Assembly (NCBI GenBank): GCA_963971425.1 | Contig: OZ020515.1 | Span: 9,378,291-9,442,290 of the forward strand | Source of the DNA: Bryoerythrophyllum caledonicum | Taxonomy: Eukaryota > Streptophyta > Bryopsida > Pottiales > Pottiaceae | DNA: 64,000 nt | Direction: 5' to 3' | Shown: positions 23,041-63,153 of the stretch, in pieces | Position numbering within the stretch: the stretch's first letter is position 1 | Layout of the letters: the number at the start of each line of letters is the position of its first letter | The notes under the pieces: generated by a model | Told to the model about the DNA's origin: nothing | Database searches by the model: none | The model's input: only the letters and a program-made list of their open reading frames with translations | Program-made: the position numbers and the translations under genes

Positions 23041-23140
23041 TGAAAAATGGGACTTCCAAGAACCAAAAATGGGATATAGATCATAGAAAATGAAAAATGG
23101 GACTTCCAAAAACCAAAAATGGGATATAGATCATAGAAAA
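23041..23140 (+). repeat. 50-bp tandem duplication
   Basis: Two near-identical 50-bp units start at 23041 and 23091 (TGAAAAATGGGACTTCCAA), differing at very few positions. Confidence 0.85.
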
Positions 23141-25797: not shown

Positions 25798-28700
25798 ATG
25801 AATGAGAATTTGCGTAGTCGTGTTGCGACCATCAGAATCAATAGCGACGGCCGTACATTGCGTCATATCCCACTTGGTGACCTAATCCTACAAACGGAGC
25901 TGCGAGTGGCAACAGAGCAAAATATACTTGCATATCCATGCCCGTGCAAGGACTGTCATGGGGGTCGTCGCAAACGGATACATGTCATCAGAACTCACCA
26001 TATGTCGGTGGGTAGGGACCCCTTTCTGACCAGGTCCATGATTGGTGGCGATCCAATCGACGGATATCCACCCCATGGTGTCTGGGTTGAGGACATTGCA
26101 TTTGACAATGACATCGTTGATGTGGATCCTGTCCTTGTCAATAATGACGTTGTTGGCAATGACATTGTCGTGGATGACGTTGTCGGCAATGTTGTTGATG
26201 ACGCTGATGGCGAAGATGTGGTTGATGGTGTTGGCACCTCACTCGACCAGCATCACGACGTGCAGAGGCAGGTGATGGAGGCCTTTGACCGCGGAGATGC
26301 ATTGCATAGGGCGTCTATTGACGAACCTGATGTACCAGAAAACGAGGACCGCGACAGTGACACAATGGATGGAATGGAAGAGCTGTTTACGCAAGCAACT
26401 ACGCCGTTGTATCCCGGCTCCAAGACAAGTGTTGTCTCTGCAACAATCATCATCATGAATATGTGCGTGGTGTTCCGTGTCAGTAACAAGTTTACAGACG
26501 AATTGTTGCAATTTTTGTCACAGGACTTGCTACCGAAGGGCAATAAGCTGCCAGGTACTCATTATGCAGCCCGCAAGACCATCCGGAAGTTGGGCTTGAA
26601 CTACAACAACATACATGCATGTCCTGATGGATGTGTGCTTTATGAAGATCAACATGCAGAGCTAAATACATGCCCTCATTGTTTCAAGTCACGTTGGATG
26701 GAAGGCAGGAGCAGTATCCCAGCAAAGGTGATTCGACACTTCCCTTTGGTTCCTAGGCTGAAACGGATGTGGCGATCTCAAGAGATTGCTCGCATGTTGA
26801 CGGGTCACACAAAACATGTCAGCGATGACAACATAATGCGATCGGTCGTCGACAGCCCTGCGTGGAAGCACATCGACACAGACGTCGCATTCAACAACTT
26901 TGGCGCGGACATCAGGAACTTAAGGTTGGCTTTGGCATTGAACGGAGTTAACCCTTTCAAGCTCAACAATACAAATTGGTCGACATGGCCTGTCTTGATC
27001 TTAATATACAATTTGGAGCCTTGATTTGTCACAAAGAAGTTTTTCATTTCATTGTGCATCTTGATCTCAGGCAAGCAGTCACCAACAGCCAAAAACATTG
27101 ACGTTTTCCTGCGTCCTTTGTTGAAGGAGCTCCTTGAGTTATGGAGAGGCGTCCCAGCGCTAGACTTCTCCTCTCCAAAAGAGTCTCAACGTTTCAACCT
27201 ACGCGCCTTGTTGATGTGGACAATCTCCGATTTTCCAGCGTATGGCCTCATCTCTGGCTTATGTTGCAAGGGTTACAAAGGCTGTCCTTGTTGTGGCCCT
27301 TTGACGGAGGCAAGGATGGCAAAGATGGGTGAGCTGCTACCAGATCGAACCACGAGAGGTTCAAAGATTGTGTATGGAGGAATCCGCAGGTATCTAGCTC
27401 GTCACCATCCATATCGCAGAAACAAGAGGTTTAATGGCCAGCCTGAGTACCGGGCAAAACCTCCTGTAGTATCTGGGGTAGACGTGATCAAGTATGCTGC
27501 GTGGCGGCAATCATACCTGGATTTGGATGGCAAAGAAGATGGGAAACACGATCCAGTGCATACAACAGGCGTGAAAAGACTGAGCGCTCTCTTCGAACTT
27601 CCATACTGGCAGGTAACTTGACTAACATTTCATCTGTTGTTCTTCTCGACGTCGGCACATCTCTTCAGACACTGAAATGAACATTGTTATTGACACGTGC
27701 CGTGTCATAGTGGACATTTCCGCAGACGTCAGTGAAACTAACAGATCGTATAGCTGTATTTCGTCAAGCCTTGGAACCGCCGGTCAACGTCAAAGTATGT
27801 GGACAATTCAATTTCACTTCTAATCAAGATCCATTGTTTTTCTTGCAGCATTTGAAGGTCCGACATGTCCTAGATGTCATGCACTGTGAGAAGAATTTGT
27901 GCGAGAATATATTGAAGACGCTGTTTGGTATGAACGACAGTCCGGGAAGCCGTCAAGATATGGAGGACTTGAGAATGCGGCAAGAGGTTTGGTTGCAGCC
28001 TCCATGACGCCGGACCGATGAGTACTATATGCCACATGCACCGTACATATTGAAGCCTGACGAGCGGAAGGAGTTTGTGCACATAGTGTCAAATATCCGC
28101 ACTCCTACAAATTACGTTGGGTCAATTCACAAGCGACTGAAGGACGGGAAACTGCAGTACATGAAGACCCACGACTATCATGTCCTCATGCAGCAGGTAT
28201 TGACATAAACCTCAAAAAAGCAATATCAAAATTGGCTCCCAGCACTCCCTGAATAATATGATTCTCATAACTTTGTGTCCATGTCTACCACCACAGTATG
28301 GTGTGATGGTGGATGTCATAGAAAACACCTTTCATTATGTCTAGACGTTTCAATAGATGCTCAACATCACATCTCATAAGAGACATATCATTTTGAACAT
28401 GTTATTGCAAACAGTGATGCTTTGAATAGGGATAACCTACGTTGTCACAAGCATGTTTCAGAGCGCCTCAAAAGTGTAACCCGTGACTGTGCTTTGGATT
28501 TTCCCGATTTGTAGATACTCCCGGTGGCTGTTCGGAATCTGTTGGACGAGGATGTACGCATGGCAATCCTAAAAATTAGTAGAGTCTTCCAGAAAATTTG
28601 TCAGAAAGAAATTCGAGAAGACGACAAGGACAGTATGATGCAAAACGTGATTATGGCAACATGCGTGTTGGAGAAGGAGTTTCCGCCAACATATCTGAAC

Positions 28701-30221
28701 GTCATGATGCATCTCCCTATACACCTTGTTGAGCAACTTTTCATATGTGGGCCTGTCCACTGCAGGTGGATGTATCCAATTGAGAGGTACATGAAGACCT
28801 TGAAAGATTATGTCAGGACCTTAGCGCATCCAGAAGGGAGCATAGCTGAAGGGTATCGTATGGAGGACACGCTTGGGTTTTGTACGGAGTATATGAAACA
28901 ATACAAAGCAACAACGCACCGTGTATGGGACCCCACGGAAGAGCCAGCCATGAATGACGAAATCTTGACCGGAAACGAGCACACGAAGCGCAAGATGTCT
29001 GATGAGATGCGCATTCACGCACATGCATTCGTCATCGACAACGCGCCGTGCGTAGAACCTTGGCGAGAGTGAGTCCCTATACCTTCCATACAGAACGTGA
29101 GGGTTGCCCTGCTTATGTAGCCTACCATGTTCATTTGAGTCATGCTGTGATACCCATTCGACAGCTAGAAATCAACGCCGATGTTTCGACGGACATCTCA
29201 CAGAACAGCTATATTTTTTATCCATAACTAAACCCATGTCCGACGTGACATCGACACAAACATACCTTGCTGAATCTAACGCTCGATTATACGTCTTTAA
29301 TAACATGATGTGTACTTCCTCTACTGTAATAAATCGCACAACTTGTCTAACAACGGAAGTTCTGCATTATCAAACAGGGCATACATTGTTGCCAAAGGAC
29401 GCAATTGGCAAGATCGAGAGGCATACCGAGTACAAGCACGTCGTCGTAACCCTTCCGCACCATGTCGGTATCCCCCTGAACTGAGCGAGTTGCCCCCTTT
29501 TGCAGATTGGTTGAGGGCACGGGTGAGAGATGCGCAGTGTGCTGGCCAAGATATTGACGATGACATCATACACTACTCCCAACCACCGGAGCGGTACGCT
29601 ACCACACACCGGCTCATGCACGCATTTGGGATGCATTTGCGTGTTCGGAGCTCCGAAGATGGGCTCGTCACTCGCGACTCGTGTGTGGTAGCCACTTTCA
29701 CAGAACAGCTTCGTTGGGGGATTTGCAATGGTAGGCCAATAGAAAGAACCGAAGAGTATGTGGGCTACATAGAAGAAATATTGGAGCTGGATTACCGAAA
29801 TCACTGCACCACAGTACTTGTGTGCGATTGGATCAAGGCATCACGGGATCCTCGACACCCAAACATTGAGCGGGATAAATATGGATTCACCGTGGCAAAC
29901 TTCAACCATATGGACAGGAGGGTGCATGCCAATTCATTTGCATTTCCATTGCATTGCCAACAGGTATTCTTCTCTGATGATCCGAGGAGACGGGGATGGA
30001 AGATAGTGTGCCGAACAGATGTCAGGGGTCGGCGTCGGCCATTGCAACTTTCACAGCCCGCCCCCACCATGGTTGACGTCGGCAATGATGAGGACTTTGG
30101 TGGCCTACATCCTGTCATGTTGGAAACTGAGCCCGAAAGAAGGCCAGCTACTGAGGGCGGCAGCTACGTGACAGCAGCAACCGACACTGCACAACAACAA
30201 GCTACTCAACAGGAAGAATGA
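25798..30221 (+). pseudogene. TNP2-type CACTA transposase, four exons, two nonsense codons
   Basis: Exons 25798-27612, 27849-28196, 28515-29068 and 29378-30221 join in phase to 1186 codons. The N-terminus has a cysteine motif (CPCKDC, residues 48-53; transposase-associated domain). The TNP2/Transposase_21 core includes TWPVLILIYNLEP, NIDVFLRPLLKELLELW, LLMWTISDFPAYG and HVLDVMHCEKNLCENIL. Exon 3 is DUF4218 (HLPIHLVEQLFICGPVHCRW). Exon 4 contains DUF4216 (YVGYIEEILELDY, CDWIKASRD, YGFTVANFN). Two in-frame stops, TGA at 27022-27024 (normally Trp) and TGA at 28005-28007, are the only obvious lesions, so inactivation looks recent. The enzyme would cut and join CACTA ends. Both stops could arise by single C-to-T or G-to-A changes. 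Confidence 0.88.
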
Positions 30222-30580
30222 CGAATGGATCTCAGTTTTTTCCCCAGTTTGCAAATCCTTGTCAGCATTATAGATTGTATTACAAAAAATTCAATGAACG
30301 GACATCATGTTCATTTGTAAATACTAAGTATAACATGCTCCGGCAAGTAACAACACTGCACGAAGTAGTTGGATAACTTTGTGCACTGAACCAAACTTTG
30401 GATCGAAATGGACTGTCTCCATGTTGAGGTTGATGTCGAATTGTCCATCAGCCGCAATGATTTGGTGACGGTGAGTATGTTGAAGTCGATGTTGTCTAGT
30501 ACCATTGACGCTTATCTTTGGATGTCTGGTGGGATGGTCACTTCCACGTATGAGTATTTGATGCATATGCTCCGTGGATT
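30222..30580. other. 3' flank of TNP2
   Basis: Short non-coding stretch between the TNP2 stop and the nested element. It ends in ATT (30578-30580), the left target copy of the inner CACTA. Outer-element sequence continues at 53144. Confidence 0.6.
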
Positions 30581-30610
30581 CACTATAAGAAAACCACATT
30601 TTAGGTGGCG

Positions 30611-32039
30611 TCAATGCTGCAACGTGCCGTGTTTTCTGAGACTTCTGACGTTTGTCAGAAACCGGCCGCCATACCTAAAATTTTTTTGACGTTGCATGAA
30701 ACGTGTCCCTCTTAAAGACGAAATGCGCAGATGTCACCGTGGATAGACACGTTTTGGAGGACGTCAGCAACAACGTGGTCACAAATAAGTGCAACGTCAT
30801 AGAAAATGCGGGAGGCCCACATCAGCCACTGCATTCATTTTCACTCTGGGATGACTGCAGTCCGCTGCCTGGAAGCAAAAAAAATTGAGCAAAATGGGAG
30901 CTCCTCTACATAGATAGGCAATACTTGTTTGTATGAAAACATCGCCTTTGCTTACATGGGATAAATTATTCTAATGGACTTACAAAAACACATAAAACTA
31001 AAAATTTATTAGTGGCTCAACTTAAATGCACATGTTACATATATTTTGTATGCATAATATTTTTAAGTTGATTAAATATGGGATTTTTTGCTCATTAATT
31101 TAAATTGGATCACAGACATGCTTGATAATATAGGAATTCTAGTATTCATTCTTTAAATTCATTTTTTTAGAAGAATGAGTTCCAAAAAATGGCTAATGTT
31201 TGAGTGGTCTTGGGTTGTTAAATAATTATGAAAGTGGAAAAAAAATGGGGAAGGTGTGAGTGGTTTTGGGGTGTTTCAAACTCTAAGAGTGAATAACAAA
31301 AATGGGGATTATTTGCTCATTAATTTAAATAATGTTACAGAGCATGCTTGTTAGTATTAGAGCTCCAGGAATTCATTCTTTAAATTCATGAACTTAGTGG
31401 CAAATGTTTGAGTGGTTGTTAAAAAATTGCAAAATTGGAGAAAAAATGATAAAGATGAATGTGGTCTTTAAGTTTAGGAAAACTAGAAAGATTCTTTTTA
31501 AAAAAATGTAAAATTGTCGTGGATTGATTCGTCCTGGGCTTCTATGAAAATTGCAAGAGTGACTGAAATGAAAATGGATAATGAATAAGTGATCTTTGGT
31601 AAAGGAAAAACTTAAAAGACTCAATAAGAAACATAAGAAATGCTTGAATTGGTATTCAAGTGTTTCTTACATCTTAAGATGGTAAAATCAATTAAAATGT
31701 GTGTGCTTATTGGATGTTAATTAAATTGAAACCCATTGAAGAAATAATTGGGAAACATTGAAGTTCTTTTCATATGTTTGGAAACTTAAAAGGTTATCAA
31801 AAGTAAAATGGGAATGCATGAGTGCTCTCGGGCCGTTAGAGAAATTGTAAGAGTGATTAGAAACAAATTGGAAAATTAAACAGTGGTCTTCCGTTTAGTC
31901 AATAGTAAAAATAGTGAATATTTCAACATTTTTGGGTCTTTTAAAATTGCCCCAGGTCTTAAGAAAAAAAATGTAAAAGCTTGAAGTTGTCTTTGGGGGT
32001 TTTAGGACTGAACTTTGTGCGAAAAAAGATGGTAAAGAA
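30611..32039. other. Inner CACTA left arm, no gene
   Basis: 30611-30890 is subterminal sequence with GACGTC/ACGTC motifs. 30900-32039 is AT-rich DNA with imperfect internal repetition: an AATTCATTCTTTAAATTCAT segment occurs near 31135 and again near 31369. No gene seen. Confidence 0.5.
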
Positions 32040-35000
32040 TCTAGACCTTGTGTAGTGAAAATTTTCAAACCAAGTGAAGTCAAAGTTTGTTGATCCACTC
32101 AACGCAGGGAAGAAAATGAACTATTTTTCCACTTTACACACTTTAATATTTCAATCTATGCGGTCAAAGTTTATGAAATTTTGAGAGACCCTTACTTAGT
32201 AAGCTTTAATTTAGATCCTACGGTCAGATGTAGAAATAAAAGTCTTTATTTCCCTCTTTACTCATTGAACTTGAATGAGCAATTTTGAAGTGTTTTTGGT
32301 GTCAAAATGCCTTGGGCCTTTATGGGTTAATACCATGATCAACATGATGATATAAATTTTAGACCTTGTATAGTGCAAAAAATTTACACCAAGTGAAGTC
32401 AAAGTCTGCTGATCCACTCAGAACAGGGATGAATATAAACCATTTCTTCTACTTCAACCACTATAATCTTAAAATCCATGCGATCAAAGTTTATGAAATT
32501 TTTGTTTGTAAGTTATTTAATCCCTAAATTACCAAGAGTCCCCTTGGGGGACTCTTTAAGGTTTGGGAAGGTTCCTACTATGTCAATAATAATGTTCTTT
32601 TTTTAAACATCTATCTGTAGATGGACACTACTAAAATCTTTCTACAAATCTAATTTTTTCCTTGATCCAACATTAAATGAAAAAGATCTAGGGTTTTGAA
32701 GTTCAAATGGGGAGAGCAGGCATGTGAGGCAGCCCTAAAAACTTGTGATAGGACACTCTATCAAATGTGAGATTTTAAATACTAGTAAGTAATATTATCA
32801 CCTTTGATGTTTTCAAAGAAAAATACTTGTCTTTAGTGAAATAGCATATTAATCCAAGTCAAACATTTTCATGCTTTATTGCACATTGTCCGGCAAGGTA
32901 CCTTAAATCTTCTTCCTTTCCACATAGAACTTAGAAATCTTCATACTTTCTACTTTTTATTTTCCCCATGGCATTATTTGGTGTAAACCTTCGTATTGGC
33001 CATATGGATTCTCATTCTAAAACATGTTATGTTCACAATAAAATTAAACATGAATTGTCAATTTTTTAACCTCCATTCCTTGCACAATTTTGTTTGAATA
33101 TGCTACACCCAAATTTTTCCTCTAAAAATTGGTGTACAAGGAACTAATATCATGCTTAAGATGATGGTAATGAATTTAGACCTTGTATGGTGCAAACATT
33201 TGACACCAAGTGAAGTCAAAGTCAACCGCTCCACTAAACGCAGGAAGAAAATGAATCTTTTATCTACTTTAAACACTATAATCTTTCAATCCCTGCCGTC
33301 AAAGTTTATGGAATTCTCTTATTGGTCACTTAATAAGTCTTCATTGTTATCCAACGGTTTAAACTAGAAATAGAAGTTCTATTTTTCTTTCATACTCGTT
33401 GCACTAAAAGAAGTAGTTTTGAGGTGTTTTGGGTGTGAAATTGTCATGGTCATCTAGGGGTTAACCCCTAAGGTACCGTGACAATTTCACACCAAAAACA
33501 CTTCAAAATTGTTGGATTCTAGTGCAATGAATAGTAGAAGGAAACAAAAACTTTGATTTCTAGTTTTGACCGTAGGATCTCAAATAAGACTTATTCAGTA
33601 ACATACTCATAGAATTTCATAAACTTTGAACTCACGGATTGAAAGATTATAGTGTTTGAAGTCAAGCAAATGGTTTATTTTCTTCCCTGCGTTTTGTGGA
33701 TTAGACTTTTACTTCACTTGGTGTCAAGTTTTTCCACTACACAAGGTCTAAATCCATTACCATCTTGTTAAGCAACATATTAGTTCCTTATACACTATAT
33801 TTTAGAGGTAGAGGAGGGGTGTAGCCTATTCAAAACAAGTGTGCAAGGAGTGGAGGTTCAAAATTTGCCAAGTCACTCTTTAATTTTTTGTGAACTTAAT
33901 ATGTTTTAGATTGATAATCCGAAAAGTCAATAGAAAGTTTTACACCACAAATAGTTGTGGAAAAAATAAAAAGTAAAAAATATGAAGATATCTAGGTTTT
34001 ATGTGGAAAAGAAGAAGTTTTTTTGGTACCTTGCCCGAGAATGAGTGACAATGTGTGAAAATGTTTGACTTGGGTTAATATGCTATTTTTCACTAAAGAC
34101 AAGAATTTATTTTGACTTTATGAAGAGAAACGATATTACTTGTGACCATAGAAAATCTCACATTCAATAGACTGTCCTATCAAAAGTTTTTGGAGGTGTC
34201 CAAGGTGCCCGCTCTCCCCATTTGAAATTCAAAACCCTATAACTTTTTCTCCAAATGTCTGATTTAGGAAAAAAAAAATCTCCCATTAAGGTCTTAGTAA
34301 TGCCCTTTTACAATAAAAATTTCAAAGAGGAATGTTGGAAATTGACACCGTAGGAACTTGACCAAACTTTCAAAGAGCCCATTTTTGAGACTTGGTCCTT
34401 TAAGGGTTATTAAGTCTTGATTGATATTCTACGGTTAAATGTAGAAATAGAACCTTTTTTTTCCATTCTTACTCATTGCACTAGAACAAGCAATCTTGAA
34501 GTGTTTTTGGTGCAATAATGCCTTAGGACTTTTGAGATTGACTAGATTTTTTGGTGAACTGCACCTTGACAAAGCTTTCCTCGCAACTTTAGGTCCTTAG
34601 GGGTCAATTTTAGAATACTCTACCATCTTTTTTTTTTTAAAAAGAAATTATTCTAGAAATGTAAATCTAAGATTAGGAATTAAGTAAATGATGTTTCCTA
34701 TAGACATCGAAAAGGATCCACCATCAAGACTGGAGATACAAGGTCTCCTTCTATGAACAATGGTCTCTGCTAGAACACAGTAGAAGACAAAAATCAAGGT
34801 TTCAAGTTGGTTTGCAAAGTGAATCCGTAGATCACCCAATGAATGATTGCATCTGCAAATGCTTGTTGCTAGAACTTCTGCTAATGAATAACACGTAATA
34901 CATCGTCAACTGCATTATCTACTTAGTGCTAAATCATGCTATGTTTCCTCATGTTTGAGGTGGTGCAACCTGCAATAGTGTATCCATTCACGACCTAATT

Positions 35001-36130
35001 TTCTTTGCATGAAATGTTTGGAGGTCGCGATATCCCGTCGTACGTGGCAACGGGTGCCACCATCGCCCATGAGATCGCCCATGAGCTCGCCCATGAACTT
35101 ATATAATCATACTTAACATGATGGTAATGAATTTAGACCTTGTATTGTGCAAAATTGGACACCAAGTGAAGTCAAAGTATGCTAATCTTGTAATGGCATG
35201 GAAGAAGATGAGCCCTTTTCTCTACTTCAAACCCAAAATGAAAAACATCCTCTACGGTTAAATGGGCCTGTAGGGGTTAACCCTTAACCCCTAAAGGACT
35301 GTGACAATTTCACACCAAAAACACTTCAAATTAGTTGGCTCTAGTACAATGAGTAAGGAAGGAAACAAAACCTTACATTTATAGGTTTGACCATAGGATC
35401 TCAATTAGGACTTACTAAGTAACATACTCACAAAATTTCAAAAACTTTGACTCCATGGATTGAAAGATTATAGTGTTTTGAAGTCAAGCAAATGGTTTAT
35501 TTTCTTCCCAACCTTCATTGGATCAACAGACTTTGACTTCACTTGGTATCAATTTTTTGCACTACACAAGGTCTAAATCCATTACCATTGAATTAAACAT
35601 GATATTAGTTTCGTATGCACCAATTTTAGAGGTAAAGGAGTGTAGCATATCAAAACATGTGTCCAAGGAGTGGAGGTTCAAAAATTGTCAATTCACGTTT
35701 TATTTTATTGTGAACTTAATATGTCATAAATTGATAATCCAAGTAGTCAATAAGAAGGCTCTCATCACATATTTATGTTGAAAAAATAAAAAGTGAAAAC
35801 TATGAAGATCTCTAGGTTTAGTAGAAAAGATGAAGGTTTTTGCCGCTCGCCCGAAACATGTAAAAATGTTTGACTTGAGTTAAAATGTTTTTTTACACTA
35901 AATATAGTAAATCTTTTTGACATCTTCAAAGAAGGTAATATCCTCTACATTTATGAAAAATCTTAATGTCAATAGAAACTTCTAGCAAAATTTAGGAGTT
36001 GCTTAGAGTCCCCATTTCTAACTTTTAGTGGTACTAACTTTCAAACCAAAAAAAATAACAAAAATACCTCCACAAAGCTCTTATCAGGGACAATCTAGTA
36101 TAAAAATTTCAAAAGAAAGAGATATTTTTT
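32040..36130. repeat. Left block of an unnamed ~0.95-kb repeat family
   Basis: Copies and partial copies lie at about 32040-32330, 32340-33465, 33463-34440 (inverted), 35100-35270 and 35281-36130. Landmarks in order: CCCCTAAA, GTGACAATTTCACACC, AAAAACACTTCAAA, GACTTCACTTGGTATCAA, GCACTACACAAGGTCTAAAT, AAGGAGTGGAGGTTCAAA. The same family recurs at 43.9-49.0 kb. Open frames across it are short and not conserved, so it appears non-coding. Confidence 0.75.
32490..34440. repeat. ~1.95-kb fold-back (inverted repeat)
   Basis: Two arms of about 970 bp are reverse complements of each other. They are centred on the perfect palindrome TAGGGGTTAACCCCTA around 33462. Arm landmarks, such as GGTCTAAAT with AAGGTC-type complements and AAGGTACC near the far ends, pair at equal distances from the centre. 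The arms have diverged by substitutions and small indels. A second, truncated version of the same centre lies at 35271-35295. Confidence 0.75.
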
Positions 36131-36618
36131 CCCGAATTTTAGGAACCTGCCCAAAATCAAAATCGTCCACCCCTATGTGAAATGGTCCTCTAGGGATGAA
36201 ACGTCAATCACGAACGGTATACAAAGGACCATACTTTACTCTATAGAATACAAAAAAATGTATTAAAGTTTTGCAAAGACTAACACCTTTGGATTGAAGA
36301 ATCTTCAACTAACATCTTTCATTCTGAAGTCATTTCAATCAATCTGAACCTTATCATGTTCAAATATGACACCGTACATGTAGAATACAGTGGGCACCAG
36401 CAGCACCTTCTGATGTCTAAGGGTTAACCTGTTTAAATTGGACAACCGCAATCGTGATGTGATGCAAAGCCTTCTATTGTGAATGCTCGCATAGAATTTT
36501 CTTGAGAAACCACATCATTCAATAAAGTTTTTCTTCTCAAAACCACCTCATTCATATTCTTATTCCCATCCTACCAAGCGTTCTAAAGAGCTAATTCCAT
36601 GGCAATTGATGTGGTTGG

Positions 36619-36689
36619 AAGGGTAGTATTCCATCTGCAGTAAAGGTTCCCTTTGCTTGTGTCAAAAAAAAAAAAAAAAAAAGGGTAGT
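36619..36689 (+). mobile_element. Tiny truncated retroposon with poly(A)
   Basis: About 35 bp of unique sequence followed by a run of about 20 A is flanked by AAGGGTAGT (36619-36627 and 36681-36689). The layout fits a strongly 5'-truncated LINE or SINE copy with a 9-bp target duplication. The source family is not identifiable. Confidence 0.5.
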
Positions 36690-36939
36690 CATAGAAAGCA
36701 ACACCCTTCAAGGTACCTACAGGTGATGCATCTACAGCTGGCATTCAAGGGGGGGACGACATTAGAGCTATGATAAGGTTGTTGACTAACATTTCGGGTT
36801 AGGGATGACTGGCTTGGTCGACAAGGTTGAGTGTGATGCCAGCTTCCAGTGGCAGCTTCTTGAGCACGATCCTTGACAGTTTGCAAGTCCAAGGGGTCGG
36901 AATCAAGCAATGAAATATGAGTTCTAACAAGGACGAATG

Positions 36940-37400
36940 GATGACCACCACCACGCAGACCACCATGTCCACCTAAACCCACAAATTCATAAACCCATAA
37001 TTCCACAAATTCATAAACCCATAAAACCTACAAACCCACAAACCCACAAACCTCTAAACCCTAAAACCCACAAATTTACAAATCCACCAATTCTTAAACC
37101 CACAAAATCCACAAACCAACAAAATTACAAGCCTACAAAATCCACAAACCAACAAACTTAGAAATTCACAAACCCACAAACTTATAAATCCACAAACTCA
37201 CAAACTATTAAACCTACAAAATCCACAAAGTCATAAACCTACAAATTCATAAACCTATAAACCCTAAAACCCAAAATTCATAAACCCTAGAACCTACAAA
37301 ACCTACAACTTCACAAACCCTCAAACCCATAAGTTCTAAAATCTATAAATTCACAAATCTACAGTTTTCAAACCCACAAACCCATGAATTTACAAATCAC
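36940..37400 (+). repeat. AAACCCACAAA-type minisatellite
   Basis: Degenerate 10-11-bp units (AAACCCACAAA, AAACCTACAAA, CATAAACCCTA). They resemble the plant telomere unit AAACCCT, but the unit is longer and irregular, so this is not an interstitial telomere array. It sits just downstream of the dioxygenase gene's 3' end (that gene is on the minus strand). Confidence 0.7.
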
Positions 37401-37513
37401 AAAAATAAAATAATGTTATAAAAATATGAATCAAAAACTTTATTTCCTGTAGTAATCGGATACCATTCTACTCACTCCTCGAACTAAATTCCTAGTATCT
37501 ACCATACTAGATT

Positions 37514-38683
37514 TTAATTCTTAATCTGATTGACCAATCTATCACTAATTTGAATTGAACTTCCAATACGAGTAAAACTAGGACTTGTAGTAGAACTAAA
37601 AGTTTTATGTTCATCTTTATTAGCCCTCCATATGATTTCTGTAGCTCCATCACAAAACTTAATACATAGTTTGTATGGTGCTATAAAAAAATCTCCACCT
37701 TCACAGTGAAATCCTATATCTAATGGTGCTAATATCCCAGAATCTCTAATTGTGGGTAACCACATTCCAAAACTATATGAACCATGATCTCTATCTTTGT
37801 GCAATTTGTTATCGAAATCATCAAAGGTAAATATTAAATTACTGGCAAATGCACCTCCCATAGTGTCATCATATTCAAAATCCCCAAAATTAGGAATTTG
37901 TACCTCCAATGCTTCTTTTGTAGTCTTCTGAAATAGTCTAGGTGACAACTTTTGAAATTGGTTTTGATAAAAACCAGCAATCCAACTAATTTCCGCTTGA
38001 TCACGGACCCACTCAGAAATTCCATCCTCTTGCCGTTGTAATAAAGTACTTGGAACATACTTTCCAAATAATAAAGATTTCCCAGCTAATCCCTGTTCTA
38101 AACGCCATCCTACTGCAAACATCTTACCATTTCCCTCTTTGTGGGCCCCATTACATTTTATTTCCCTAACATTTCTATGAATTTTAGAGAAATTTGTAGT
38201 TAGTCTCTGAAAATTCTCTAACTCAGTACTGCTCATTGTGTGGAATGGTGTGAATTTTACAATAAGAACTACTTCCTTCGATTCCTTATCAACAACAATT
38301 ACCGTACCATGATCTAAAGTCAACACTCCATCCATTAAATCTAAAATGTCCCATTTTTCCACCCCTTTCCGAAATTCAACTCTAGGCCTTCCTTCAGCAA
38401 ATAATCGTGCATCATTCAATGCCTTCCATTTGATTAACTTGAATTTCTCATTTCCTTTCTTCTTCTTCTTTATACTACAAAGAAGAAAACAAACCATTAA
38501 AATAATGTATGCATATATACATTAATATTAATACATGGCTTTAATCTATAAAGGCCTAAGGCATTTTCACATGAATTAAAAATAAATGAATAAATGAAAA
38601 TACCTCCGATTGACGTTGTTGTTCTTCTTTCCCATAATAAAAAATATAGCTGAAAGCATAATGACTCCAATGATGAACCCCAT
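37514..38683 (-). CDS. TET/JBP-like 2-oxoglutarate/Fe(II) dioxygenase, two exons
   Basis: Exon 1 (38683-38604) and exon 2 (38474-37514) join across a GT-AG intron into an uninterrupted 346-residue protein. The C-terminal half has the arrangement of the Tet-like oxygenase family expanded in basidiomycete fungi: FASNLIFTFDDFDNKLHKDR, YSFGMWLPT, a Gly-rich GFHCEGGDF segment, EIIWRANKDEHKTF and SFTRIGSSIQISDRLV. Predicted Fe(II) ligands are H252, D254 and H316; R329 would bind 2-oxoglutarate. All are present, so it may be active. The family's known activity is oxidation of 5-methylpyrimidines in DNA. Oddly, exon 1 encodes a hydrophobic segment (GFIIGVIMLSAIFFIMG) followed by Lys residues, like a membrane anchor, which does not suit a nuclear enzyme; an in-frame TGA lies just upstream and a possible acceptor suggests a 5'-UTR intron. 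The family call rests on motif order only. Confidence 0.68.
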
Positions 38684-39651
38684 GATTTGTAAAATAGAAT
38701 ATCAAATATTGATAATAGAACCACCTGTAATACAAAATACAATTACAATAAGTTATATTAAATTATATGGCAATGATATTATATTTAATTCAATATAAAA
38801 GTACAATTTTTAAAAGAACTACATATTGAGAACTACTATTTTTAATGGAACTAAACTTTGAATATATCACTAATTAAATTCCAATATAAAATCAATATTT
38901 TTAGTTTAACTAATTCAAGTGTGGGGATTAATTATTTATTAAATATTGGTATATACCTTATAAAATTTTAATATATATTTTAATATTTGCTACTTTTACA
39001 ATTAAATTCTAATATATACAATCCATTGATATGCATATATTGAAGTTCATACAAATGAAATGGTAACTAGAATAGTATGCAAATCCCCTCTCCCTGTACA
39101 CCATTCCAATTTCATATGAACATCAATATATACTCCTCTTCAATTTTAAATCATAAGTATATTCACAAGTATTAATTGAATTTAATACCAAACCATAGTG
39201 TCATGAATTATTTGTTACATCTTCATAATTACATGATGAACCAAATTAGATATTAAAAATAAATTCTAAAACCCTTAATGAAATTCCAAGCTCCAAACTG
39301 TACTGATATTATTGTAGACCATGGTGAGCAATTTCCCCAAATCATACACTTTGAAATCAGAAGAAAAATAAAATCACAAGATACTTATTGAGACTGGGTA
39401 AGAACTTACAAAAGTAATACAATTATTTAGATTGAATAAACAAAACTACAAGAATCTTAACAATCTAGAATTCAATAAGTAGCACCTCATGTTGATCGAG
39501 TTTCCTCACTGTAGAGGTCGAGATAATGCAGTGTCCACCTCGGGTAAAGTTACAATATGTCACACCTAGTCACTTAATATATGATAAGATGGACTCACTT
39601 CTTCTGTCGTATGTTGGTATTCCCACTCACACTCTTGGCATACCTTGCAAA
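38684..39651. other. AT-rich spacer between cargo genes
   Basis: No gene seen. A possible splice acceptor (TTGTATTACAG on the minus strand, about 38725) precedes the dioxygenase start and hints at an untranslated first exon further up. The rest is AT-rich. Confidence 0.4.
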
Positions 39652-41876
39652 TCACTCTAAATCACTCTTCAGAATGCTTTCCACCAGTGGCTTCACGCCC
39701 TGTAAGACATTACCGACAAAAATGAGGTTGAAAGATGAACAGATGGAGGGCAACAGTGAGTAAGTGCAGGTAGAAGTAATCATACCGAGGCGAAGGGTGC
39801 CAGAACATTTGGAACCTCATAAGAGAGTCAGCTGCACAGAAGAAATCAACAAGTCCCAATAATCAATAAACTGGATGTAGAGAGTCTTGCTGATGCTATC
39901 ACCAGTCTCATGTAGAAGAACGTTGTTGGTGGAACAATGCATGTTCTAAAACTACGGTAGTTACTTGTCAAGCTCTGGAAGGTGCAAATATACAAAAAGT
40001 TTGTACCTGAAAGAACACAACAGCTACTGCTACATTTGAGCATGAAGGTGAGCTTACTTCAACGCCGCATATGTGTGATATCTTCAAATAGCTCGACCTG
40101 AATTGGATGGGAAGTTTGCCTTTCCTGCTAGAAAAGTCACCTCATAGGAATTCCGCTGGCACACTTGCTGAGCCTGCTGCTACCTGAGAAATGCATCACG
40201 ACTTTTGAGAAAAAAATGTTCTATAACCACACACACAAAGACGATGGGCATCTTTCAAAGAGGACTTCCTCATCCAAACACTTTGTAGTGAAAGGAAGGC
40301 ATTCGATAGCATCAATCTCTTGCTACCCTTCACGTCTCAAGCAAACAATGGAGCAACTTACAGCTTTACAGTCGCTAGAGAGCTTCAAAGTCTTAGAGTA
40401 GTGGATATCCAGACCATTCTTCACAGGCTCCACCACCAGCTTCGTCTGTGCAGAAATGCGAACATAAGCAACCAACACATCTGGAGACTCTCGTGTTCAA
40501 TTCACACGAATGCAAGGCCTTACCGCATCGTTAAGCCAATTAAATTCCAAACTCCAGCAAGGCGCCTTCTTCAACGACAACTCCACATTCGCACGTAATG
40601 TGAGAGTTGCGGCACTGAGAGAAAGTTGGCGCTTCACGGTTAAGTGGGTCCCCTTGGATAGAATCGTACTGCACCCCTGTGGTTTATGAATTACCAAGAC
40701 TAAAATATTGGCAAAAACAACAATAGAAGTCACAACCAGCTTATTCAGAAAAAGTGACAAAGTACCGTACCGAAGCTCTCTATCAATGATTGAGCCAGTA
40801 TCGTCAGAACGATCCGAGATTCTTCTAGTTCTGCCTCCCAGCACAAGTGTGCACTACTTTTTTCCCAAGGTGGCTGAGTCCAGTGACTCTAATCGGAAAA
40901 ACCAAGTCCTATTGCAATCCCACTCAAAAGAACAAACAACAGAAAATGACGGCTACAAACCAGTTATAGGCTCCTGTGTAACTAGAAGTGAAGATTCTAC
41001 TATGCTAAGAGATATCAGGCATGGATTTTCCAACAGTACGCGGAATGAATATTCCAATGAAAGTTGAAACCCACGTTCAGAACTCACCGAATGTTCGACT
41101 GCAGAGCTTGCACTTAAAGTTTGTGAAAACCTTGACTTGGAATTAACAGAGTGAACTGCAAAACCGGAGTATTTGTCAATGCCCAGGCAATTAAAGATCA
41201 AACAATGAGGATGTAGAAACTCATGAGAATGTCAAGTGATGCTTACGGCTCACGCTGCACTGTTTGGAGAAGATGTCTATTCGGAATGCCCGCTACCATC
41301 GCCCCAGCGCCATTGCTTGCACATTCAGTATGATAGATACATTCATGCCTAACTTAAAATACCAATTGATCTAAAAGTTCACAAGAAAAAACTAACAAAC
41401 TATCACTCTCTCAAAAGAAAAAAAAGGATCAAACCCTATTCAACACCTCTAAAAAGAGTCATCAACTGATAAACACTCGCAACCAATGCCGGATCGCGAG
41501 AACCGCCACATCTCCTCATCACAACACGCTAGTCACACCATACACTACCAACATCAAACTCCAACAACTTCCAAAAATTTCATGACGTGACAGCAATTTC
41601 TACGGATCAAAAAAACTTCCTCAATCACGTATCCCTCGCTCCTTGAACGAACAAAGATTAACAAAAACATCTTCGACATGTGGCTTATACATGCCCTTGC
41701 TAAAACAAAACAACACATTGCCTAGAGAGACCCAGTACCAAAAACTGAGCTTTCAACCAGTGACCCACCCACAAACACAGTGAAATGAAAATGTCTTGCT
41801 CACCAGCAGCGGAGACGACGCACGACAGAAACGCAACCACGACGAGGACTCCGAGCTGCGCGGACCTAGCAGCCAT
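39652..41876 (-). CDS. Multi-exon gene with signal peptide, cargo of inner CACTA
   Basis: Exon 1 (41876-41804) encodes a typical signal peptide (MAARSAQLGVLVVVAFLSCV, then VSAA) ending at a GTGAGC donor. Further exons with phase-matched GT-AG borders: 41155-41088 (HSVNSKSRFSQTLSASSAVE), 40853-40771 (TLVLGGRTRRISDRSDD), 40668-40524 (RQLSLSAATLTLRANVELSL, EFNWLNDA), 40445-40362 (TKLVVEPVKNGLDIHYSKTL), 39815-39786 (VPNVLAPFAS) and 39699-39652 (GVKPLVESILKSDLE, stop). An exon between exon 1 and 41155, and one or two between 40362 and 39815, could not be settled; one candidate reads KGKLPIQFRSSYLKISHIC. I do not recognise the family. The product looks secreted or lumenal. Its coherent intron-exon structure and higher GC than the surroundings suggest a host gene captured by the transposon. 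It may be incomplete. Confidence 0.5.
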
Positions 41877-43850
41877 GGCGACGATCGAAGAATGGATTGC
41901 GAACCGAGGGCGGTCGTCACGCTCCCACCTCACCTGGAGTGCCGCGGGAGGGGCAGCGGCAACCCAACGGAGCTATGACGAGAACAACCCACTCCGCCTG
42001 CAGCGCCACTGCAAATCCGGCGCGCTTTCACCCTCGCCAACTCCACCCAGTTCGCACACCGCCTCGCCCAGCACGCCGTCCCCCGCTCACACCTCCACTC
42101 TCGTGGTGACTCTCACACGACTACAACCTAACTCACCAGAACCATCACCCACAGATTTCGGCCACCCAAGTTGCAATTTCTCCACCAACTCTATCCAGTA
42201 ACTCTCTTTCTCGATGCACGCAGAAGCATTCACACAAACACCCTGAGAGGTAACATCTTACGATCGCATCTACACACGAGCACCCGGTCGCACCACCGCG
42301 CTCTCTTCCCTCCAGAACTTGCTTCCAGATTGCTTCCAGATTCCCTTCAGAACTTGTCAAAGATTGCGCCTTAAAACTGAACCTCAGAAGAACCTCAAAT
42401 TAACGTCTGCTTGTGAAAGGATTCTGGAAATTCCACCCTTCCAAGAGTTCATTTGGATCTTAACTTAAAATTGAATAAGCATAAATCTCAGATGATTAGA
42501 TGGAAACTAATACCTCGGACTCACAGACGTCAACTCATAAGCAAAACGAACTAACCTTGGTACTTAGACAAGAACTTAGATCCGTTGGCTCCTCTTAGAA
42601 GAATGCAAACGCACCGTCCAGGTTTCACCGAGCGATTCTGCGTCTCCTCAAGCTCATTGATACACAAGTAATGCAGCCTGAGCTTCTGTCTCAGAAACTA
42701 TAGGGCGATGCTACAAACTTCAAATACCCACGTTCGGACCCTACGCAAACTCCACTCCTCATCCGAAATGGCAAATCTCAAACATGAGAAAGTCAAGATT
42801 GGGTTACGCCATCTCCTCCTTTCCTACTCTCCAATCCTCCACAACACAAACACCTCCCCACCTTCAATCCTCACAAGATTGGCCTTAAAACAGCACCGCA
42901 AAACCGCTTTGACAGTTCATTTCCAGCTTCCAACACTAGCAGAACTCAAACTTCTGGAGTGACCCACTGAAACCGATCCTCGGAAACTCGCTCCTTCAAA
43001 TCACAAATTGATTGCGCTTCATCCATCAAATCCATCAGCCTACCCCAGCAATGCCGCATGTGCTAGAAAACTAGCAACCTTAATGAAAGCTGTGGGGAAT
43101 CAGTGCTGCTCTGGCACAAAATGCAGCAAAACAGAAGACACGTCTGGCAACGCGCCCTAGAATCTGATGATCGCTGACTCTGAAATGTCAGCGCTCTGTC
43201 TGTCTGCTTCATTCCGTCTTCGTCCGTCTGTTCAACTCCGTCCAGTTTTCGTCCCGTTCACCGCGCTCTCAACAACTCGCAGAGAAAAGAACCCCACCCC
43301 CCGCACCTCCACCGCGCTCCACTCCCACGCGCTCCCGAAAAATTCTCGCCTGATGCGTGCGATGCCTGCGCGCTGTTGAGGGCCACCTTGATCTCTCCCG
43401 CTTCCACCATTGGGGAATTATAAATTCCAGAAGGTACAGTACATAATCTTTGAGATTTGTGGAATGGGTTTCACAAATTTTAGACACACTCCCAAATGTG
43501 CTTTACCCTAAAACGCCGGAGCCTCTGACTGTGGCATAATTCTAAATTTTCAATCTACTGTATACTCTATTTTCTCATCAATTATAAATGGAATTTTTTT
43601 GTTTTATTTTTCAGAGATGAGATCACATGTCTCAATTATGTTACAAAAATCACAGATTTTTTTCTGAATATTTGAAATTATTGTGATTTTCTGAAGAAAG
43701 AGTGAAGTAAATTCATATTAAATACAAATTATGTTTAAAAAATCTGAAAATTTCACCTAAGGTAGACATTAAATTTTTTTCTATGCAAAGCTAATAAAAA
43801 GTTGCCCATTCAATAGAAAATTTCAGAGAATATTGCCTAGAATTGAGAAT
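41877..43850. other. Upstream region of the captured gene, no supported gene
   Basis: Moderately GC-rich from 41880 to 43400, unlike the AT-rich repeats on either side, so it probably entered with the captured gene as its promoter and 5' flank. Several short plus-strand open frames show no protein-like pattern. AT-rich again after 43500. Confidence 0.4.
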
Positions 43851-43889
43851 GTGGTACCCCACCTAAACTCAAAATGTTCACCAAGGGGT

Positions 43890-44540
43890 CGTTTGGGCAT
43901 TTAGGGGTTAATTGTTTACAAAGCCAGGAGACCAAAAATCTCTGAAAGACTAAGGCATTGCAAAGGAATTCATGAACTTTTTGAGTATGTAACAATAGGA
44001 TCTTCTAAATCTATATAAGATGATGTGGTAATTCTTTGTTGTAAATTTTGACCGTCTGGATTAAAAGATGATTGATTTGTACATAAACTCACCATATTTT
44101 TTCGGTTGCAATCCATCGCCGAGATTGTTAGATTATAGTGTTTGAAGGAAAGAAAAATGTTCTTTTTCTTCCCTACATTGGGTGGATCAACAAAGTTTGA
44201 CTTCACTTTGTATCAAATTTTTGCACTATACGAGGTCTAAATCTTTTACCATTTTCTTAAGCATGATGTTATTTCCCTATTCACCAATTTTTTAGAGGAA
44301 AAAAAAAGGTGTAGCATATTCAAAACAAGTGTGCAAAGAGTGGAGGTTCAGAAATTGCCATTTCACATTTAATTTTTTTGTGAACTTAGTAAGTATTAGA
44401 TTGATAATCCTAAAGGTCAATAAGAAGTTTTTTACCCCGTATTGATGTTGGAAAAATAAAAATTGTAAAAAAAAAAAATCTCTAGGTTTTATGTAGAAAA
44501 GATGAATTTCTTTCTCCCCCGCCTGCCCTAGGATGCCTAT
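43890..44540. repeat. Copy of the ~0.95-kb repeat family (right block, 1)
   Basis: Shares CATTTAGGGGTTAATTG, GTTTGACTTCACTTTGTATC, GCACTATACGAGGTCTAAAT and AGAGTGGAGGTTCAGAAATT with the copies at 32-36 kb. Confidence 0.7.
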
Positions 44541-45707
44541 CCTAAACCGAGGTAGTCTGCGTTTGTTTTTCTTCTTTTCTTTTCTTTTTAAGCACAATCA
44601 AAAGGAAAACTTTACTCACAAAGAAGGAAGAACCAAAACATGGCGCGCCAGGACCAACTACGCAACTGACAACCAAACGACTACCTAGGCTTACCAACCA
44701 AAGTTACCAAATTACTTGGCCTAGTGCAGAAAGCTTGGAACCAACTCCAAAAGTTGTCGAACCGGGGCCTACGCATCCTTTTGACTGACTAGACATGGCC
44801 TTTTAGGTACACCATATAGGTTTATCTCTCACTTCACCCACAAGGCCCAGCTTTGACCTACCAGCTAAAGAGGATGTATTGGCCTCATTAGGCAGACGCA
44901 CAAGGTGCGGATGAGCCTCCGCTTGGGAGCTCCAACAATTGGTGGTGGGTCCCACAAAACAAAAGGTAAATTTGGATATGTAAATATGTAAATTGGTTCC
45001 AAGTGTAAACGCATTGGAAACTCTTTAGGAACATGGAAAATGCGTTGGGAACTCTGGGAACTCATTGAGGAACACGGTGGGAACTTTGTAGAACAACATG
45101 GAAACTCGTTGGGAACGCATTGGGAACATTGTGGTAATAATTATGTATTTATTTCATTTTTATGTTTATTAGTATCCCAATATCCCTTTCTTCTCTCACT
45201 TTCCTCCTACATCCAAGTTCTTATATTTCCAATCTTGTATTTGCAAATTCAATTTCATGAAAAGCATTGTAGTTCGTTAATGCCTATACTAATAGCACAA
45301 AAAACAACCCTACCAAGGCCGCGTAGGCATTAAGGGATTTATAATACCTCATTTTTTGGATTTTTGACATGTATAAGTATTTGGCTGCTCCCTTGAATCA
45401 AGAGCAAGAAGTAAGTCTTTTTTACAAGTTGCATAATGTCAAGTGAATTCCTAGTTCCGTTATGATCGTTGTCATCCATCCACACCACAACTATGGCAGT
45501 ACTCCCTAAAAAATCTCTAAAATATTTACCATTCCTGGGAGTCACAATCCGCATCAAAAGCCCAATGAGAGGAGACCACATATGCACCATGGCTTTTGAC
45601 TTTTTGGCCAATCTCATCGTCACTTACTATTTTTGAGACCGGAAATATGTTCAATAGCTTTTAGGTTGATACTAAGCCGCATTCTCATAGTACACTTTGG
45701 CCCTTGT
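44541..45707. other. Inner CACTA spacer, no gene
   Basis: Mixed-composition non-coding DNA. It includes a short GGGAACTCATTGG-type minisatellite (45000-45135, annotated separately). No supported gene. Confidence 0.4.
45000..45135 (+). repeat. GGAACNCATTGG minisatellite
   Basis: About ten degenerate 10-14-bp units (GGGAACTC, GGAAACTCGTTG, GGGAACGCATTG, GGAACATTG) in tandem. Confidence 0.65.
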
Positions 45708-45911
45708 GAAATGTGAAGCTCGTTTTTGTACGAGGGTGGGGAGTCGGGTCGTGTGAGTTAGAGAGTTCCACTAGGGTCCCGGTTTTCTCTTTGGTCTTGC
45801 ACTGCCGGCCTTGGCGTGCCTGTGTTTTTGTACTGGTTCCTCGGTTCTTTTTGCAATTCAAATTCGTTTTGTTTTTGTGCCAAAAGAAGAAAAGAAATGT
45901 GAAGCTCGTTT
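45708..45911 (+). mobile_element. SINE-like retroposon with 18-bp target duplication
   Basis: A perfect 18-bp direct repeat, GAAATGTGAAGCTCGTTT, flanks a 168-bp insert (repeat copies 45708-45725 and 45894-45911). The insert is GC-richer than its surroundings and ends in an A-rich tail (CAAAAGAAGAAAA). Long perfect target duplications and an A-rich 3' end are the mark of LINE-driven retroposition. Internal GAGTTAGAGAGTTCCACTAG loosely recalls pol III promoter boxes, but a tRNA origin is not proven; a 5'-truncated LINE is the alternative. Confidence 0.78.
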
Positions 45912-46799
45912 CATGAATTGATTGGAAACAACAACATTAGGGCATACTCCTCATTGCCAGGTTATTTTATTCCCTTTGTTGGCACTCACTGAACAGCATG
46001 GTTGACTCTCATGTGTTTACCGTCGAGTGTTGCAATAGGAAGTATCCTTGAGTTTATCTAGCTTTCTGACATTTCCCCACTGAATTCTTACAGTTAGCTT
46101 GTATTGGTGTATTGGATTTCATGGACAGGGAAAGTGCCGTCCATTGTTGGTGTCAACAGAAGGTACTTACTTTGCATTTTGGATTTATAATTCTAATAGT
46201 AGACCTAAACAATGTATAGGATGATTGGTAGACAAGTCCTTCAGAAACTGGGTACGGTTGTAATACTTGCTCTTCCTTTCTTAGGGACATTGGGGATTTG
46301 GTCCGGGGACAATTTGACGATCCTTTCCGAATATGTCCAATACTACTTCGTTTTTGTTTTCACACAATAGACTGGTGATAAGTAGCTTCACTATGGTCTT
46401 TTTCAAACTGCAAGTTTATGACTTTGCTTAAATATACGCTTTGTCAACATCTATTTTGCTTTCGCTCGTCTTTCAATTATTTGACGTAGTGAGGATGGCA
46501 AAAAAATGGACCTCTTGTACTATTAAAATAGCATCAGAGTGATGTATCTTCAAAGACAAAATAGCCGACTCTTAATGCAATATTACTAGTACTACAACTA
46601 TTACTAGAACTTTAACTAAATAGGTGCAATTGATGGCCACAGTATTCTACATGTATAATGTTGTATTTTAAAATTATAACGTTAAGATATTGAAATGACC
46701 TCCAAATAAAAAATGTTAATTGAGGAATCTTTAATATTGTATTCAAAATCACAAATTTACTAAAGTGTTGTATCTAATGTCTTAGGAGGTCCCCGAGCG
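45912..46799. other. AT-rich spacer, no gene
   Basis: No coding-like frame, repeat or RNA gene could be supported. Confidence 0.4.
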
Positions 46800-47770
46800 G
46801 CACTTGACAGTTTTTTCTTTAATCCCTAAATTTCTATGACAAATTCCCACAAAAAGACATCAAATTTGTTGATTTTGGTGCAATGAGCTAGGAAAGAAAC
46901 AAAAACTTTAATTTTTAGTTTTTACCGTTGGTTCTTAGTTTAGACTTTTTAAGTGACATATTCAGAAATTTCATACACTTTGACCACATGGACTAAAAGA
47001 TTACAGTATTCGAAGTAGAAAAAATGATTCATTTTCTTGCTTCCGTTGAGTGGATCAGCTATCTTTAATTTCACTTTGTATGAAGTTTTTGAACTACACA
47101 TGGTCTAAATTTTCTACCATCATGTTGAGCATGATATTAGTTCCTTGTACACTAATTTTTAGAAGTAGAGAACGAGTGAGGCATATATATTCAAAACAAT
47201 TGTGCAAGGAGTGGAGGCTCAAGAATTGCTAATTCACATTATATTAGTTTGTGAACTTAATATGTTTTGGAATGGGAATCTAAATGGCCAATAAGAAATT
47301 GTACAGTACATAACATCTTACAGTAGAGAAATTTAAATAGTATAAAAATTAAGATCTCTAATTCATATGTAGAAAACAAGAAGTTTTTTGGTACCTTGCC
47401 CAACAATGTCTGATATTATTTGAAATATATTTGACTTGGATTAGCATGTTTTTTTCAACTAAAGACAAGAATTAGTTTTTGAGAATATGGAAGGAAATCA
47501 TATTATTTGCTAGTATTGAAAATCTCACATTAAATAGAGTGTCCTATAATATTTTTTGGGAGATGCCTGTTGAGCCCGAGGTCGCCAAATTTTGCTTAAA
47601 GATGGCATAACTTTTGCATTGAATGTCTGATTTAGAAAAAAATTGTATTCTCAAAAAGCTTTTGATAATGTCCATATATAATAAAAATTTGAAAACATAA
47701 TTTTCTAAATTGACATCGTTGGAACCTGTCCAAACCTTGAAGAGTCCCGCGAGGGAACTTTTGGAAATTT
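46800..47770. repeat. Copy of the ~0.95-kb repeat family (right block, 2)
   Basis: Nearly full length. Runs from the AATCCCTAAATTTC border through CTACACATGGTCTAAATT and GCAAGGAGTGGAGGCTCAAG to the CAAACCTTGAAGAGTCCC end, in the same order as the right arm of the fold-back at 33463-34440. Confidence 0.72.
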
Positions 47771-47967
47771 AGGGGTTTAGATGGCATAATCTTTTTTTTC
47801 CCAAGGTCAAATGAGAAAAAAAAATTATTCCATGTACTTTTTGTGTTCTAAGTTGCATCTCCATACAGAATTGCAAAAATTGCAAATATGAACAACAACC
47901 ATGAAAACGTGGCCAAGATTTGCAAAACCCACATCGGGACTTTTCCATGTAGGGGTTAAATAGATTT

Positions 47968-48033
47968 ACGTTTAGACTATCATGTTTATGCATGAATATT
48001 ACGTTTAGACTATCATGTTTATGCATGAATATT
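47968..48033 (+). repeat. Perfect 33-bp tandem duplication
   Basis: Two identical 33-bp units (47968-48000 and 48001-48033) starting ACGTTTAGACTATCATG. Identity suggests a recent event. Confidence 0.95.
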
Positions 48034-48144
48034 AGAACATGAAAATCATAGTACGTAAGCACGTATATGCATAAACATGATATGTGTTGACATTGTCCAC
48101 ATATTTGTTCTTTTGATAAATTATGTAAACATCTAAACACTGAT

Positions 48145-48965
48145 TAGCCCCTAAAAGCTCATGACAATTTCACACAATTTCACACTTTAAAATAGTTGAT
48201 TCTAGTGCAATGAGTAAGGAAGATAACAAACCTTACATTAATCCTTTTGACCGTAGGATCTCCATAAAGACTTACTAAGTAACATACTCATAAAATTTTA
48301 TACACTTTGATCGCACGGATTGAATGATTATAGTGTTTGAAGTCAAGAAAATGGTTCAGTTTCATCCTTGTGTGAGTATATCAGTAGACTTTGACTTCAC
48401 TTGGTATTGAATTTTTGCTCTACACAAGGTCTAAATCATTTACCATTGTGTTGAGCATGATGTTAGTTTCGTATAAAACAACTTTTAGAGGTAGAGAATG
48501 GGTGTAGCATATTCAAAACAAGTATGCAAGGAGTGGAGGTTCAAAAATTGTTACTTCAGAATTTGTTTTTGAGAATTTAATATGTTTTAGAATGATAGTC
48601 TAAACGGTCAATAAGAAGGTTTACACCACATATCGTTGTAGAAAAAATAAAAAGTGAAAAATATGAAGATCTTTTGATTTTATGGAGAAAAGATGAAGTT
48701 TTTTTCCCTGCTTGCCCAAAATGTGTAAAAATGTTTCTTGAGTTGAAATATTTTTTTGCATCAAAGACAAGAATTTTTTTTTACATCTCCAAAGAAGGTA
48801 ATATTCTTTACATGTATCTCAATGTCAATAGAAACTTATAGCAAAATTTTGGAGCTTCCCGAAGTCCCCATTTTAAACTTTAAGTGGTACTAACTTTCAA
48901 ACGATGAATCCAAAAATAATAATAAAATTATCTCCATAGAGCTCTTATCAAGGAAAATCTAGTAC
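48145..48965. repeat. Copy of the ~0.95-kb repeat family (right block, 3)
   Basis: Most similar to the copy at 35281-36130. Both end with ACTTTCAAAC, then GAGCTCTTATCA, then AAAATCTAGTA/ACAATCTAGTA. Confidence 0.75.
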
Positions 48966-63054: not shown

Positions 63055-63153
63055 TGAGATACATATTAAATAACCCTAAATTTATGACTATCAGACTCAT
63101 TGTCATTTTAACTCCAATCGAGGTAAACAGAAATAGGACATCAGGTATGTCAA

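Follow-up and report, generated by a model that had tools for sequence, protein, structure and literature searches.

TET/JBP enzymes oxidise methylcytosine or thymine, and plants silence transposons by cytosine methylation. In fungi, TET genes have been found inside DNA transposons, EnSpm elements included, in rusts, mushrooms and morels/truffles (Kojima 2025, PMC12730594), in searches that covered fungal genomes (section 2.1 of that paper). As described in the parts of the paper drawn on here, the fungal TET-bearing EnSpm elements have 5'-CAC..GTG-3' ends and 3-bp target duplications. For plants, the passages of PMC6917789 and PMC11233409 used here state, respectively, that TET/JBP dioxygenases had not been identified and that plant TET homologues are unidentified, and both treat oxidised methylcytosines in plant DNA as reported and disputed. 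Among the titles listed from the part of the open-licence PMC literature that was covered, none concerned a plant TET transposon. Enlarged CACTA elements appear in the consulted portion of a giant-transposon review as 16-20 kb elements of a red alga (PMC6431247).

We analysed a window of 64,000 nucleotides from contig C2, which is 40.3 Mb long; the assembly comprises 437 Mb in 894 contigs. In this window a TET-like gene lies within two nested CACTA elements (Table 1). Plant Pack-CACTA and other gene-capturing elements likewise hold non-transposase cargo between CACTA ends, whereas the cargo here is a conserved enzyme gene with an uninterrupted frame that recurs beside CACTA transposases at many loci. 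The locus resembles the fungal TET-bearing EnSpm/CACTA elements, as far as the consulted text of PMC12730594 describes them, in having a TET/JBP-like gene within complete DNA transposon ends, and in the fungi too several kinds of transposon carry such genes in one genome, EnSpm among them. It differs from them in its host, most likely a moss, in its carrier, two nested CACTA elements that together span 40.6 kb, and in a hydrophobic N-terminal exon; its protein has HxD, in contrast to the HxE of the PE type outlined in the same paper. The basidiomycete Kyakuja-Dileera-Zisupton (KDZ) transposons, as related in PMC12730594, are similar in that a TET-like gene has multiplied with a transposon family, but the element in the window is bounded by CACTA ends and has tnp2 in place of a KDZ transposase.

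Table 1. Features of the locus, in positions of the 64,000-nucleotide window.
Feature	Position	Strand	Basis
Outer CACTA element, complete, 40,590 bp, inverted ends CACTATAAGAAACCC	15883..56472		Copy alignment, inverted ends, right-end search
Outer target-site duplication GTC, left	15880..15882		Copy comparison
Outer target-site duplication GTC, right	56473..56475		Copy comparison
tnp2 transposase (PF02992) of outer element	25777..27618	+	Pfam; two ORFs, E 6.4e-15 and 4.4e-37
DUF4218 (PF13960), part of transposase gene set	28515..29069	+	Pfam
DUF4216 (PF13952), transposase gene set	29304..30218	+	Pfam, score equal to cut-off
Inner CACTA element, 22,563 bp, nested in outer, holds TET-like gene, inverted CACTATAAGAAA ends	30581..53143		Ends and end searches
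Inner target-site duplication ATT, left	30578..30580		End comparison
Inner target-site duplication ATT, right	53144..53146		End comparison
TET-like gene exon 1, with start codon and hydrophobic N-terminal stretch	38604..38683	-	Frame read, copy comparison
TET-like gene intron, GT-AG, 129 bases	38475..38603	-	Donor GT kept in five of five diverged copies read
TET-like gene exon 2, whole PF20515 domain and stop codon	37514..38474	-	Frame, Pfam profile
H252-x-D254, predicted iron ligands	37793..37801	-	Codons located (H252 37801-37799, D254 37795-37793); role inferred from family
H316, predicted third iron ligand	37607..37609	-	Codon located (37609-37607); role inferred from family
R329, predicted 2-oxoglutarate-binding arginine	37568..37570	-	Codon located (37570-37568); role inferred from family

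The gene runs on the minus strand from 38683 to 37514 and its spliced product has 346 amino acids. The initial annotation had described a spliced frame of this length carrying H252-x-D254, H316 and R329, and its exons, GT-AG intron, length and residue positions all proved exact. In a Pfam scan, exon 2 gave a match to PF20515, the Tet-like 2OG-Fe(II) oxygenase superfamily, that spans profile positions 3-211 of 211 and scores 139 bits where the cut-off is 27 (E 2.9e-40), which excludes a chance match for this frame. With E values up to 10 admitted, no Pfam family but PF20515 was listed, within the bounds set by the HMMER filters, which discard most weak matches. The assignment to the Tet-like 2OG/Fe(II) oxygenases was therefore upheld, the best match being neither to another 2OG class nor to no family. 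A second profile family suggested alongside it fared otherwise: at the same E limit the gene had no match to the canonical Tet_JBP (PF12851), and the single match of this profile across the genome, at C1:14279069, scored below the cut-off.

CcTET, NgTet1, TET2 and CMD1 share the residue order HxD...H...R, and the same order is present in the predicted protein. In an alignment of six sequences the columns of H252, H316 and R329 were invariant and D254 was replaced by N in one (L044). Neither the single sequence nor the six-sequence profile matched solved structures named TET at E up to 10. Relatives of the protein were not reported in phage records, viral contigs or prokaryote genomes (three of the searches were pattern-based), and PHROGs gave no match.

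Upstream extension of exon 1 in its frame is precluded by an in-frame stop seven codons 5' of the start codon. We read exon 1 in five of seven separate exon-1 matches, which share 80-82% DNA identity with the window. All five have an intact donor GT, and one differs in the final base of the exon; this conservation supports the 38604/38474 splice. Exon 1 encodes MGFIIGVIMLSAIFFIMGKK, with a mean hydropathy of 2.64 over the first 17 residues. The hydrophobic stretch was kept in four of the five copies (in one of the four with the start codon shifted by one codon), and the fifth had lost the start region; counting the window, five of six exon-1 sequences have it. This conserved stretch looks like a membrane anchor, which would be odd for a nuclear enzyme. 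Five lysines follow it, so the domain could face the cytosol or the nucleoplasm, and a location at the nuclear envelope is possible.

The ends of the outer element were defined by comparing the window with five other loci and their surroundings. Homology to the window stopped exactly at 56472 in four of these and reached the left end in three (at 15883, or 15882 in one); the fifth locus matched the window only piecemeal. Other copies have target duplications of their own, TGA/TGA and GTA/GTA, and AAG/AAA in the C855 copy (two of three bases alike); for the C4 copy a single end was found. With the last 1,000 bases of the element as query, 40 of 330 candidates were scored, and 38 of these first 40 rows ended at query position 998-1000, as expected of a true element end. 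The outer element thus has CACTA terminal inverted repeats, a 3-bp target duplication and tnp2. The initial annotation had called the TET-like gene CACTA transposon cargo, and the ends and target duplications that it lacked are now located. One in-frame stop breaks tnp2 in the window copy, at a position where each of the four other long copies has a sense codon. Because of this stop, the window copy would probably depend on transposase from another copy to move again. Ten further ORFs of the outer element (of 198 of at least 60 amino acids), six of them in the inner element, had no Pfam match over the cut-off.

What had been taken for one CACTA element in plant-like DNA can be stated more sharply: there are two, nested, in what is most likely a moss, and the gene belongs to the inner one. 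The tnp2 gene lies outside the inner element and the TET-like gene inside it, and no transposase was found among the six other ORFs scanned that fall wholly within the inner element. We searched with a query across the left junction (400 bases of outer flank and 600 of inner element), for which 40 primary matches were scored of 373 candidates. Six of the 40 crossed the junction, and the other 34 began at query position 396-491, at most 5 bases from the inner end or inside it. At the right junction, 8 of 40 matches extended into the outer flank and 32 ended at query position 597-610. Matches to the inner ends without the outer flank indicate that the inner element forms a mobile family in its own right, present in high copy number, that at some time inserted into the outer element, and that the composite then spread.

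The composite has moved as one unit, as seen in four other long copies read beside the window. Their substitution identities to the window in the outer-left, inner and outer-right parts were 98.07, 98.04 and 98.44 (C1a), 96.16, 94.34 and 96.59 (C1b), 98.31, 98.88 and 98.95 (C4), and 99.74, 97.23 and 99.55 (C855), where the inner figures cover 15.2 to 22.5 kb of the 22.6 kb and are affected by internal repeats. A plain alignment of the C855 copy gave 99.6 and 99.7% over two stretches, together 18323 to 56472.

Some other features of the window were recorded. Degenerate GGGTTT-like (telomere-like) repeats with a period of about 8 lie directly downstream of the TET-like gene (36975-37329) and align in other copies. 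Outside the outer element, ORFs on the minus strand at 60952-63075, one of them DUF7869 (E 4.8e-43), perhaps belong to another mobile element; a stretch 91% identical to this region lies about 13 kb from a TET-like copy at C1:53004681. A tandem array of 8.9 copies of a 123-bp unit occupies 1290-2380. A search of the window with Rfam gave nothing over the gathering score.

Across the genome there were 120 matches to PF20515, and 14 control genomes had none, a weak control in that those named are prokaryotes. Matches less than 1.5 kb apart on one strand were merged, giving 103 loci. These lie repeatedly near CACTA transposases: with 150 of 420 tnp2 candidates scored, at least 21 of the 103 loci had tnp2 within 20 kb, compared with a mean of 1.4 (range 0 to 3) in 18 controls in which all loci were moved 100 to 900 kb in either direction. 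At 10 kb the count was 10 against 0.6 in the controls, and at 30 kb 22 against 1.8. The count of 21 is a minimum, since 270 tnp2 candidates were left unscored. The window composite and its copies account for five of these loci, and the remainder is 16 of 98. Grouped by eye by offset and strand, the 21 loci fall into five layouts, which are not necessarily separate captures and in which loci on small contigs may duplicate chromosome loci: TET and tnp2 10.7-11.0 kb apart on opposite strands (five loci including the window), 6.5 kb on opposite strands (five), 5.4-7.9 kb on the same strand (five), 10.8-11.6 kb on the same strand (three), and 16 kb upstream on the opposite strand (three). At C4:3805644-3812773, seven PF20515 matches stand in a row on one strand over about 7 kb, either tandem TET-like genes or remnants.

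We also paired left and right ends of inner type on the same contig and strand less than 100 kb apart, which gave 21 elements, and read their TET content from the 120 profile matches and 15 of 44 DNA matches. All ten elements longer than 20 kb contained a TET match, and the 11 below 15 kb all lacked one. The window composite and its copies make up six of the ten, and their lengths count up to 800 bases of outer flank. One paired element of 50.5 kb on C2 holds both TET and tnp2, and three other giants (49.8, 60.0 and 69.8 kb) had no scored tnp2. The inner element at C15:16574435-16605271 has two TET matches on opposite strands, one toward each end, where the window copy has one.

Several markers bear on the host. 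Arrays of TTTAGGG were found at four of nine contig ends read (121 to 210 overlapping double units), with C1 and C4 among the contigs that have them, and the RuBisCO large subunit gene (rbcL) on C590, C821 and C894. The rbcL types on C821 and C590 (L018 and L019) differ, perhaps reflecting a plastid copy relocated to another genome or a second plant in the sample. Dynein heavy chain had ten genome matches, and its presence argues for a plant with swimming sperm. Two LEAFY DNA-binding exons matched 4bhk best (238.9 and 130.7 bits), ahead of the runner-up chains (173.6 and 111.7 bits) and of 2vy1 (170.3 and 91.6 bits); we take 4bhk to be the LEAFY protein of the moss Physcomitrium and 2vy1 that of Arabidopsis. 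The host is a plant and, judged by its LEAFY DNA-binding domain, most likely a moss. A rust fungus as host, which the size of the genome and the TET elements known from rusts might suggest, was rejected on the TTTAGGG arrays, rbcL, dynein heavy chain and the closeness of LEAFY to 4bhk.

The predicted protein has been conserved over long divergence. Between the window and the diverged L044 copy (C2:83401-84600), 316 codons without stops gave pN 0.20, pS 0.68 and a dN/dS of about 0.13, a rough value because dS is saturated. The ratio was 0.25 between the window and the C4 copy, and 0.63, on few changes, for the close pair L046 and L047. Four diverged relatives have PF20515 matches over the cut-off, and the intron-containing relatives L045-L047 retain the same domain. 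Among the five long copies of the composite, those of the window, C855 and C4 have an open exon 2, and the two on C1 have it interrupted, by one stop in one and more in the other; exon 2 is also uninterrupted at the C2:83k locus, and stops are present in many copies of the gene in the genome. The uninterrupted L044 has H-R-N in place of H-x-D and is possibly a catalytically changed form, so that an open frame is no guarantee of an active enzyme.

Judged from these features, the gene rather likely encodes a TET-like 2OG/Fe(II) dioxygenase of plant CACTA transposons that acts against silencing of the element. The enzyme would be made when the element is transcribed and would oxidise 5-methylcytosine, or another methylated base, on the DNA of its own or related elements. 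Oxidation would weaken methylation-based silencing and allow the transposase to be expressed or to use the element ends, and movement of the family, non-autonomous members included, would be aided. The numerous short inner elements without TET imply that TET would not be necessary in cis. A cytosine methyltransferase domain (PF00145) is present in the genome, with one nearly full-length match (profile positions 3-322 of 324). Of 1055 PF00145 candidates, 123 were scored, most of which cover only about profile positions 44-157 (for example, C4:18006381-18006725); 17 lie in open frames of 1,332-1,371 amino acids and maybe belong to a high-copy mobile element with a partial domain. Several features count against this reading: the hydrophobic N-terminus, the H-R-N of L044, the stops in many copies, the short inner elements without TET, the missing matches to PF12851 and to solved TET structures, the roughness of the dN/dS value beside the higher ratio of L046 and L047, the share of the composite and its copies among the TET-bearing paired elements, and the 82 loci with no scored tnp2 within 20 kb. 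The same function has been argued for the fungal genes from mostly undisrupted frames, without experimental proof, in section 4.2 of Kojima (PMC12730594).

An unlikely alternative is that the element's oxygenase acts on something else, such as thymine, N6-methyladenine, RNA or a membrane-associated target. The hydrophobic N-terminus, with its recurrence among the exon-1 sequences, speaks for this, as does the range of the TET/JBP relatives, whose reactions according to the consulted text of PMC12730594 include the oxidation of thymine or 6mA and the addition of glyceryl groups. Carriage by a transposon, however, agrees with silencing based on 5-methylcytosine, and the five lysines could put the domain on the cytosolic or nuclear side of a membrane.

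It is also improbable that the gene is a passenger, captured by CACTA elements and without function for them. Plant CACTA elements are known to capture gene pieces. Stops in many copies, the spread of many short inner elements without TET and the loss of the metal-binding aspartate in L044 are what such a passenger might show, but the low dN/dS between diverged copies, the open exon 2 at the window, C855, C4 and C2:83k loci and the five TET-tnp2 layouts speak against it.

We consider it very unlikely that the genes belong to the host, whether native or domesticated, and are found in or beside transposons by chance. The family is large, the seven-match row on C4 would fit such genes, and 82 of the 103 loci had no scored tnp2 within 20 kb (with 150 of 420 tnp2 candidates scored). 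Yet the window gene is enclosed by CACTA ends with target duplications and moves together with these ends, and the association with tnp2 is far above the local background, which largely refutes this explanation for the window copy. Fungal contamination of the assembly, suggested by the fungal nature of the nearest published systems, has a negligible probability, as the gene is on C2 (40 Mb) with near-identical copies on C1 (65 Mb) and C4, both of which have telomere arrays.

The preferred reading, an enzyme directed against silencing of its element, can be taken further in an account that is more speculative and may well be wrong in part or whole. These genes would be the first TET enzymes of land plants and would serve as weapons of CACTA elements in mosses, at about 100 loci and in at least five transposase layouts, maintained by selection for the oxidation of methylcytosine in element DNA. 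Fungal transposons may have been their source, and the hydrophobic N-terminus may tether the enzyme to the nuclear envelope.

Mosses include an established laboratory model. TET-like genes carried by the mobile elements of a plant provide named genes for the question of whether plants have TET enzymes, and the counter-defence proposed for transposons, described until now in fungi, would extend to plants.
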